Below, in pieces: positions 3,452-8,180 of a stretch of 64,000 bases of DNA (position 1 is its first letter; every line of letters starts with the position of its first letter). Below the pieces are notes generated by a model, which saw only the letters and a list, made by a program, of their open reading frames with translations, was not told the origin of the DNA and ran no database searches. A program made the position numbers and the translations under genes. The stretch is taken from NCBI RefSeq assembly GCF_019795295.1, contig NZ_JAIMCG010000002.1:333179-397178 (forward strand), given 5' to 3'. The stretch is from Cupriavidus sp. AU9028. GTDB lineage: Bacteria > Pseudomonadota > Gammaproteobacteria > Burkholderiales > Burkholderiaceae.

Positions 3452-4798
3452 ATGAATCCCTCCCTGCATGAGCCGACGAGTGGCCAGGCAGTCCCCGAGA
3501 GCGATCTGATCGAGCGGATCGCGAGCGCCGCCGAACGGTTGCCGGCGATGGAATCGTCTGCCTTCGGCACAGCGGTCGATCGCTTCGCGAACTGCCGGGT
3601 CGTGTTGCTGGGCGAAGCGAGCCACGGCACCCTGGAGTTCTACGAAGCTCGCGCCGCGCTAACCCGTCATCTGATCGAGCACCATGGTTTCAATATCGTT
3701 GCCGTCGAGGCTGACTGGCCGGACGCGGCGGTGCTCGATCGGTACGTGCGCCAGCTTCCGGCGCCCGAGCACCAGGAGCCACCCTTCCGCCGTTTCCCTA
3801 CCTGGATGTGGCGCAACACCTGCGTGGAACGCTTCATCGAGTGGATGCGCCAATACAACGCGGACCGTTCGCCGGAGCAACGCGCCAGCTTTCACGGACT
3901 GGACATCTACAGCCTGGGCAGTTCCATCTCGACGGTGCTGGGCTACCTGAACGACGTGGACCCCGATGCCGCCCATCAGGCGCGCGAGCGCTACGGTTGC
4001 CTGCTCCCCTGGCGCGGCAACCCCTCCGCCTATGGACTGGCCGTGCTGAGCGGCCGTGCCCGCGACTGCGAGGACGCCGTCACCGCGCAGTTGCAGGCGC
4101 TGCTGCAAAAGCGGCTGGACTACGCGGGGACCGGGCACGAACCCTTCTTCGATGCCGCGCAGAACGCGCATCTGGTCGCGTCCGCGGAGCAGTACTACCG
4201 CCTGATGTACCGGGGCGGCCCGGACAGCTGGAACCTGCGCGATACGCACATGTTCGACACGCTGGCGCGCCTGATCGAGATCGGCAGGCCGAATGCGCGC
4301 GCGGTGGTGTGGGCGCACAACTCGCATATCGGCAATGCCCAGGCCACCGCGATGGGGCGGGACCACGGCGAGGTCAATATCGGGCAACTGTGCCGGGAGC
4401 GCTTCGGCGCGCAGGCGGCGCTGATCGGCCTGTCCACCAGCGGCGGCACGGTGGCCGCGGCGTCGGACTGGGACGGCCCGATGGAAATCAAGACCGTGGT
4501 GCCGGCTCGCTCCGACAGTTACGAGGCGCTGTTCCACCGCACCGGCATCGACCGCTTCCTGCTGGACCTGCGCGAAGGACAGCACGAGGACATGCGGACC
4601 CTGCTGACGGTGCCGCGGCAGGAGCGCTTCATCGGCGTGATCTACCGGCCCGACACCGAGTTCGCCAGCCACTACGCGGTTGCCTGTCTGCCGGAACAGT
4701 TCGACGCACTGCTGTGGTTCGATACGACCCGCGCCGTGGACGCCTTGCCCACCGGCATGCGCGCGGGCGTTCCGGACACCTATCCGTTCGGCGTGTAG
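3452..4798 (+). CDS. Erythromycin esterase family protein
   Basis: This 448-residue protein belongs to the erythromycin esterase (Ere/EreA-like) superfamily of metal-independent hydrolases. The family signature GEASHGTLEF near residue 50 supplies the conserved Glu and the catalytic-base His, and VVWAHNSHIGNA near residue 290 supplies the second conserved His. FHGLDIYSLGSS is also family-typical. The ATG at 3452 is chosen because TGGAG lies about 10 bp upstream and the preceding frame has no protein character. Many chromosomal homologues in soil bacteria have not been shown to hydrolyse macrolides, so a resistance role should not be assumed. It has no neighbours of related function. Confidence 0.85.
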   Translation: MNPSLHEPTSGQAVPESDLIERIASAAERLPAMESSAFGTAVDRFANCRVVLLGEASHGTLEFYEARAALTRHLIEHHGFNIVAVEADWPDAAVLDRYVRQLPAPEHQEPPFRRFPTWMWRNTCVERFIEWMRQYNADRSPEQRASFHGLDIYSLGSSISTVLGYLNDVDPDAAHQARERYGCLLPWRGNPSAYGLAVLSGRARDCEDAVTAQLQALLQKRLDYAGTGHEPFFDAAQNAHLVASAEQYYRLMYRGGPDSWNLRDTHMFDTLARLIEIGRPNARAVVWAHNSHIGNAQATAMGRDHGEVNIGQLCRERFGAQAALIGLSTSGGTVAAASDWDGPMEIKTVVPARSDSYEALFHRTGIDRFLLDLREGQHEDMRTLLTVPRQERFIGVIYRPDTEFASHYAVACLPEQFDALLWFDTTRAVDALPTGMRAGVPDTYPFGV

Positions 4799-7585: not shown

Positions 7586-7716
7586 ATCGGTTCTCGGGTC
7601 TTGTCTTGCGGCGGGGGTCGGCCTGGAAGCCACTCCTGATGATCTCGTGGCCCGTGCGCAACGCCAACCTTGTTGCTCCGGATTCTCACCGATTTTCCCT
7701 TGCATCCGCGCCAATA

Positions 7717-7732
7717 CTGTATATCCTTACAG
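7717..7732. promoter_or_regulatory. LexA (SOS) box 1
   Basis: CTGTATATCCTTACAG matches the proteobacterial LexA operator CTGT-N8-ACAG exactly in both half sites. It lies 35 bp upstream of the start codon at 7767 and 19 bp from the second box. Confidence 0.8.
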
Positions 7733-7735
7733 GTA

Positions 7736-7751
7736 CTGTACGTCCATACAG
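7736..7751. promoter_or_regulatory. LexA (SOS) box 2
   Basis: CTGTACGTCCATACAG is a second exact CTGT-N8-ACAG match, 19 bp centre to centre from box 1 (about two helical turns), ending 15 bp before the start codon at 7767. Bound LexA would block initiation and ribosome-site access. Confidence 0.82.
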
Positions 7752-7766
7752 TTACGGGAGTCAGCG

Positions 7767-8180
7767 ATGGAAAACCGACTTGAGGACCTGATCGATCTCC
7801 ACGGCAATTACGACCGGATGGTACTGCGCTGGCTGTGCCACCACGTCGGCGTTCCCAGGCTGGGCCGCGCTGCCGCCGAACTGTCGCGCCGGCCGCAGGG
7901 CGGCAAACCGGACCTCGTCGCCGTCTGCAGGAAGCTTGGAGTGCGCCCGCTCGGCCGGATGGCCGGCACGGGCAGCAAACCCTCCTCCAGCCGCAAGGCC
8001 AGGGACCGGACCGTGGGCGACCGGTATCTCGCTCGCATCCGGCAGATCCTGGACGCCCCGAAGGGCGAGTCACCTGCGGGCGGCCAGCACAAGCCGGCCC
8101 GGGACGACCGCAACGCAAAGGAAGGCAGCGCGGCGCCGGTGCGGCAGGGATCGTTGCCCTTTGCGGCAACCCCGGCTTAG
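7767..8180 (+). CDS. Uncharacterised, probably SOS-regulated 137-aa protein
   Basis: I do not recognise this protein. The ATG at 7767 has a GGGAG ribosome site and sits directly behind two LexA boxes, so DNA-damage induction is a strong inference. The N-terminal 70 residues look folded and helical (MENRLEDLIDLHGNYDRMVL, then WLCHHVGVPRLGRAAAELSR), with His-His at about 27-28 and one Cys nearby. The C-terminal half is basic and low-complexity, rich in Lys, Arg, Ser and Pro, and ends SLPFAATPA. A QGSLPF segment near the C-terminus loosely resembles the QL[SD]LF-type beta-clamp-binding peptide carried by many DNA-repair proteins, but the match is weak. There is no signal peptide or membrane helix. 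Confidence 0.72.
   Translation: MENRLEDLIDLHGNYDRMVLRWLCHHVGVPRLGRAAAELSRRPQGGKPDLVAVCRKLGVRPLGRMAGTGSKPSSSRKARDRTVGDRYLARIRQILDAPKGESPAGGQHKPARDDRNAKEGSAAPVRQGSLPFAATPA

Follow-up and report, generated by a model that had tools for sequence, protein, structure and literature searches.

The locus

The window, which is the whole stretch of DNA analysed, covers 64 kb of the genome of Cupriavidus sp. AU9028. Tandem exact LexA boxes, 19 bp apart from centre to centre, had been predicted upstream of a gene for a 137-aa protein, and both boxes are present at that place. The features of the locus are:

7700-7705, + strand: probable -35 element TTGCAT, 16 bp before the putative -10 element; CTTG is invariant in 29 aligned promoters of the genus
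7717-7732, no strand assigned: LexA box 1, CTGTATATCCTTACAG, exact CTGT-N8-ACAG, matrix score 22.8
7722-7727, + strand: probable -10 element TATCCT, within box 1; positions 5-7 and 10 of the box are invariant in the 29 promoters
7736-7751, no strand assigned: LexA box 2, CTGTACGTCCATACAG, exact CTGT-N8-ACAG, matrix score 20.4
7756-7760, + strand: probable ribosome-binding site GGGAG, read from the sequence
7767-8180, + strand: ORF of 137 aa for a putatively LexA-controlled CppA-like protein; coding 7767-8177, with the stop codon extending to 8180
7779-8051, + strand: conserved helical core, residues 5-95, with 21 invariant columns in 30 aligned rows; helices from the model of the relative L045
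8145-8162, + strand: QGSLPF, residues 127-132, resembling a clamp-binding peptide and with counterparts in the tails of relatives

LexA-type boxes in the window and in the genome

The exact CTGT-N8-ACAG pattern occurs three times in the 64-kb window against 0.45 expected, a count reached in none of 100 shuffles, and none of 100 Markov simulations of 64 kb produced a pair of such sites within 40 bp. When the window was scanned with a matrix built from ten other LexA-type boxes of the same genome, boxes 1 and 2 were its top two sites and the next scored 10.4. Their scores are inside the range of those ten boxes, the lexA and recA ones included (20.4 to 30.9), a range that is favoured because these boxes made the matrix. 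Besides the lexA pair and recA, the ten take in boxes preceding two imuA genes, an error-prone polymerase gene and a UDG-linked radical SAM gene. The third exact match, at 4684-4699, has a matrix score of 3.0 and is overlapped by long ORFs; given its G+C-rich core and low score, it is probably a chance site.

Across the whole genome there are 25 exact matches, and the reversed control has 21, which makes the bare pattern a weak guide on this scale. It is the A+T-rich core and the pairing that carry the weight of box identification. Eleven regions covering 12 exact matches, mostly A+T-rich, were inspected and nine downstream genes were scanned for families. Behind the exact boxes are genes for LexA, RecA, two ImuA proteins, a partial error-prone DNA polymerase, and a UDG-linked radical SAM protein. 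Below the cut-off are a weak YoaA/Rad3 helicase match and a UvrD/PcrA-like helicase, the frame of which is cut by the end of the locus. The ninth gene encodes a 123-aa orphan without a family. In regions L139 and L141 no clear target gene for the box was seen. Since boxes are found before known SOS genes, CTGT-N8-ACAG is likely to be the LexA box of this organism. The only close pairs among the exact matches of the genome are the one before lexA, where the boxes are 20 bp apart, and the one before the 137-aa ORF.

Two further observations concern these boxes. The two imuA genes are separate, at C7:106581 and C22:262375, each with its own exact LexA-type box. The box in region L141, at C9:50454, is exact and A+T-rich; an ORF that starts about 475 bp from it carries a motif that we take to resemble SRAP/YedK.

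The promoter elements were assigned from conservation alone. In the alignment of 29 promoters, from which the one genus locus with 20-bp box spacing was left out, the strongest conservation is in both boxes and in the CTTG 15-18 bp before box 1. The candidate -10 element reads TATATT in most relatives, versus TATCCT in the window. A generic promoter scan gave no consensus match at the locus.

Conservation of the gene and its boxes

A search with the window protein found matches in 47 of 80 genomes, with 47 of the 48 genomes of the genus represented (its own included; G023 was missed) and none of the 32 genomes of other families. The gene had been proposed as a LexA-controlled SOS gene, and loss of the boxes in close orthologues was looked for. 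Both exact boxes are kept in 30 of the 30 genus loci read from the 47 matching genomes, spaced at 19 bp in 29 and at 20 bp in one. Allowing up to one mismatch, 39 of 44 named loci have two boxes, four have one, and one, which has no clear start, has none; these loci are mostly from Cupriavidus and many come from the same genomes as the 30. Two boxes are also present in 16 of 20 loci from other genera of the family and in six of nine Burkholderiaceae loci from a plasmid collection (L129-L137), with one box in the remaining four and three. LexA repression and SOS induction of the 137-aa gene are, on this sequence evidence, very likely.

Profile searching extended the gene to 137 of 299 genomes and 10 of 25 genera of the taxonomic family, some of the matches being weak (E near 1e-4). 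Across the order, five of 300 sampled genomes matched; one of these is outside the family and its gene is without a LexA box.

The protein

Two alignments were used: A1, with the 30 loci returned from the 47 matching genomes, and A2, made up of the window and the named loci other than L040, L069 and L072 (41 of 44). Identity between the window copy and the other 29 rows of the 30-row alignment is 36-44%, and the branch of this copy is the longest in the tree, at 3.04. Over the first 84 codons dN/dS is 0.065-0.356 in nine necator-like and 0.00-0.083 in six pauculus-like sequences. The overall range of 0.00-0.36 indicates purifying selection in these 15 close relatives, a set that does not include the far more diverged window copy. 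A His-His pair (residues 25-26), pointed out in the original prediction, is present here and is not conserved in the alignment.

The gene had also been described as having no recognised family. This holds for Pfam and NCBIfam, where the window protein has no family at E <= 1, and does not hold more broadly, as CppA-like kin were found. The 42 members of A2 gave no credible family in Pfam, NCBIfam or PHROGs, with a best E of about 0.01 in one to six members, and eight members from plasmids and other genera gave no NCBIfam family. Solved structures searched by sequence returned a single match, VpsR, at E 1.1. The predicted model of the relative L045 has four helices with a mean pLDDT of 89.1 and no match at E <= 0.001 to the PDB or to viral folds. 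Neither the family scans of A2 members nor the fold search with the L045 model detected a DNA-binding domain. A segment with the pattern S-x-I-C-R-x-L-G-I looks like the start of a helix-turn-helix (in CppA it reads S-N-I-A-K-V-L-G-L), a likeness unsupported by the scans. The two proteins for which the pI was computed are strongly basic, at 10.8 for the window protein and 11.2 for L045. No membrane segment was seen on reading the window sequence by eye. A phage origin was considered and dropped, L045 having no match in a phage collection. The literature searched contained no paper on the function of the 137-aa gene or of CppA, and the available part of PMC10710452 holds nothing on the 137-aa gene.

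Kinship with CppA and plasmids

When plasmid records were searched with L045, 169 matched, 140 of them from Neisseria, and among the 40 matches listed most of the Neisseria ones are annotated 'cryptic plasmid protein A'. Comparison of profile against profile with hhalign gave CppA a probability of 99.3% and an E of 1.8e-20 over 82 columns. The 61-aa proteins of two Acinetobacter plasmids score 43.2 and 41.7 bits against the combined profile, and E 1e-4 and 3e-4 by tblastn. For the combined profile and the tree, rows were cut to 100 residues, and a few short tails bearing the peptide motif may touch the tree. By these comparisons the 137-aa protein is a distant relative of CppA, its core homologous to that of a group on pJD1 of Neisseria gonorrhoeae and on plasmids of Deefgea, Hydrogenophilus, Chromobacterium and Acinetobacter. 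The CppA group differs in length (80-89 aa versus 137), in the absence of a LexA box within one mismatch from the five genes read (L124-L128), and in having the tail peptide in none of seven members.

The gonococcal cryptic plasmid is present in about 96% of strains, and its cppA, for 'Cryptic plasmid protein A', is in a transcript with mobilisation genes, according to the portion of PMC3032703 that was available; there the function and replication of pJD1 are called largely unknown. As CppA has no known function, the homology points to a location rather than to an activity.

Some of the plasmid relatives are close to replication and partition genes. In two Acinetobacter plasmids (L160:3471-3653 and L161:3471-3653) the order is parA, a hypothetical small ORF, the 61-aa CppA-like gene, and repM. 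The gene is about 156 bp after the replication initiator in a Deefgea plasmid, 473 bp after the initiator and beside parAB in Paraburkholderia fungorum, 402 bp from parA in another P. fungorum plasmid, and 2.0 kb after parAB in a Caballeronia plasmid. Among 13 distinct annotated plasmids, five have a rep or par gene within 2.5 kb, where the record lengths would predict about 1.3 (simulated P 0.004); the 13 were picked by hand among the matches listed and are not a random draw. This count leaves out pJD1 as too small, L134 as without annotation, and L136, L161 and L163 as near-copies.

In other Burkholderiaceae genomes the gene is usually away from the dnaA contig: in 25 of 27 genomes, the window's not counted, and in 21 of the 23 that have at most five contigs. 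These genomes were chosen as nearly complete, and related ones are not independent of each other. In two of the 27 the gene is on the dnaA contig. The usual location in these 27 genomes fits second chromosomes or megaplasmids. The window itself comes from a draft assembly in 42 contigs, with the gene on C22 and dnaA on C42. Clustering of the ORFs in the flanks of 54 loci (44 named, nine from the plasmid collection, and the window) found no conserved neighbour. The largest neighbour cluster covers 16 loci; many of its frames lie over or close to the gene itself, and antisense frames blur the picture.

The terminal peptide

The original prediction had noted a likeness of QGSLPF to clamp-binding peptides, the consensus of which is Q-x-x-L-F. 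That likeness gains weight from its recurrence in the tails of relatives, where counterparts read QGSLF, QASLF, QTSLF, QPALPF and QRALPF. Q-x-x-L-[FLW] or Q-x-x-L-x-[FLW] is found in 19 of the 40 readable tails of A2 (L070 and L073 have no readable helix end), against 0.31 expected from shuffling of the tails, and in four of 356 control ORFs of the same loci within their last 40 residues. The tails are divergent, varying in their letters and in length (8-50); 13 of the 19 end on the motif, which forms their last five residues. It needs three changes on the weakly supported tree. Counted again over all loci, the motif is in 19 of the 44 named loci plus the window.

The motif is absent from the other 21 readable tails, and necator-like copies are without it. 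It is also absent from the tails of 20 loci of other genera, 11 from the Burkholderiaceae plasmid collection, seven of the CppA group, and 21 of the genus of G089, these 59 loci including near-copies. Because the peptide is missing from so many tails and groups, docking is not the general function of the family. The intended yardstick was the genome's own ImuB: frames that we take to be ImuB, the neighbouring ImuA genes having been identified by the scan, have no match to the clamp patterns tried. Polymerase frames of the same genome have internal QTNLL and QADLL. Taken together, the tail sequences make docking on the clamp somewhat probable here and in several further lineages of Cupriavidus.

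A related peptide occurs at the opposite end of the protein in the genus of G089, which, from the similarity of its sequences to B. cenocepacia L134, looks like Burkholderia. The gene is present in 64 of 65 genomes of this genus, and in four it has an N-terminal extension. Three of the extensions read M(Q/H)QGSLFK; the fourth, MQQEALSK, is without the motif. The variants that read M(Q/H)QGSLFK, from this genus and from a viral contig (L164:2980-3276, L165, L166 and L172), have another promoter, which lies farther off and carries near-LexA boxes, two with one mismatch each in L164, L165 and L166 and one in L172. In L179 there is one exact box at the more distant promoter. The copy on the viral contig reads MQQGSLFK. 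A prophage source was not concluded: although the gene is at the edge of the viral contig, its promoter and extension there recur elsewhere (L178). The neighbours of the variants are presumably phage-tail or PAAR-like (L164, L176 and L177) and peroxidase-like (L178).

A possible role for the protein

The reading preferred here is that the gene encodes an SOS-induced, plasmid-derived, basic helical protein that acts on replication and, in some of Cupriavidus, docks on the beta clamp; as a whole, the sequence evidence gives it roughly an even chance. Two LexA dimers would cover the -10 and start region of a sigma-70-type promoter, which would be shut until RecA triggers the cleavage of LexA. This stand-alone SOS gene would then yield a small, basic, helical CppA-like protein whose most likely target would be DNA replication in the cell or replicon that has been damaged. 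The basic charge, the A-x-x-L-G-[IVL] segment that is like part of a helix-turn-helix, and the rep and par neighbours of some plasmid relatives suggest such a role, although the case for an action on replication is itself about evenly balanced. In several Cupriavidus lineages, that of the window among them, the terminal Q-x-x-L-(P)-F would probably tether the protein to the beta sliding clamp, and its burst after damage could compete for the clamp or steer replication at the lesion. More tentatively, secondary chromosomes may have made an SOS effector out of a plasmid-maintenance protein: through dual LexA control, DNA damage would raise a small protein that grips the clamp and checks or re-routes replication, with the docking peptide gained at opposite ends in different lineages.

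It is similarly doubtful, yet conceivable, that the protein regulates replicon maintenance, binding DNA to control the copy number or partition of a second replicon and being raised by damage; the clamp peptide would then be a lineage-specific extra. The homology with CppA speaks for this, as do the gene order from parA to repM in the Acinetobacter plasmids, the nearby rep or par genes in the Deefgea, Paraburkholderia and Caballeronia plasmids, and the location on a contig other than that of dnaA in 25 of the 27 genomes. However, eight of the 13 distinct plasmids have neither rep nor par within 2.5 kb, the large replicons have no conserved neighbour, two genomes have the gene with dnaA, and a DNA-binding domain was not detected. 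An adaptor of translesion synthesis or of the mutasome, riding the clamp so as to bring in or control ImuB-DnaE2 or a different polymerase, would agree with the clamp-like peptide and with the presence in the same genome of LexA boxes before two imuA genes and an error-prone polymerase. It is nonetheless improbable, as there is no conserved neighbour within the flanks read, the five plasmid relatives of the CppA group that were read have no LexA box, and about half of the tails are without the peptide. The original prediction had also raised a division inhibitor of the SulA type. LexA control is typical of such inhibitors, SidA among them, and would suit this gene, but the missing Pfam and NCBIfam match at E <= 1, the plasmid relatives, the strongly basic composition, and the lack of a membrane segment visible by eye make a SulA-like or SidA-like protein very improbable.

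Relation to known systems

ImuB, DinB and UmuC are clamp-binding SOS proteins, which the 137-aa protein resembles in its putative LexA control and in a short peptide of the Q-x-x-L-F type. They differ in being polymerases or polymerase-like and in being far larger. SocB of Caulobacter is similar in its small size and in its reported action via the clamp, which is putative for the 137-aa protein; it differs in being the toxin of a toxin-antitoxin pair. Neither the link to CppA nor the clamp peptide was found in the literature searched.

Orphan genes that have been kept under paired LexA boxes in many members of a bacterial family indicate that the damage response has components as yet unknown. 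Should the protein indeed act on replication via the clamp, a plasmid gene would have given rise to a small SOS effector. This would provide a functional handle on the CppA of the gonococcal cryptic plasmid and would reveal how second chromosomes are tied into the DNA-damage programme of their host.

Two LexA-controlled hypothetical genes, hypA and hypB, were predicted in 2012 for beta-Proteobacteria with multiple chromosomes, and hypA was described as having no homologues outside that group (PMC3323433, from the part available). This description fits the main distribution of the 137-aa gene, which may be hypA, the two being compared by description only. LexA control of the 137-aa gene may thus already be in print. 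The description in the part of PMC3323433 that was available has no tandem geometry, no link to CppA and no clamp peptide. The 123-aa orphan is a possible alternative candidate for hypA. It is encoded on the - strand at L148:1146-1514 on contig C38, with the box CTGTATGAATATACAG just upstream, and has no NCBIfam family. All three of the relatives' loci read (L155-L157) have an exact box too, and the gene is found in nine of 20 genomes tested, all within genera g1 and g56.
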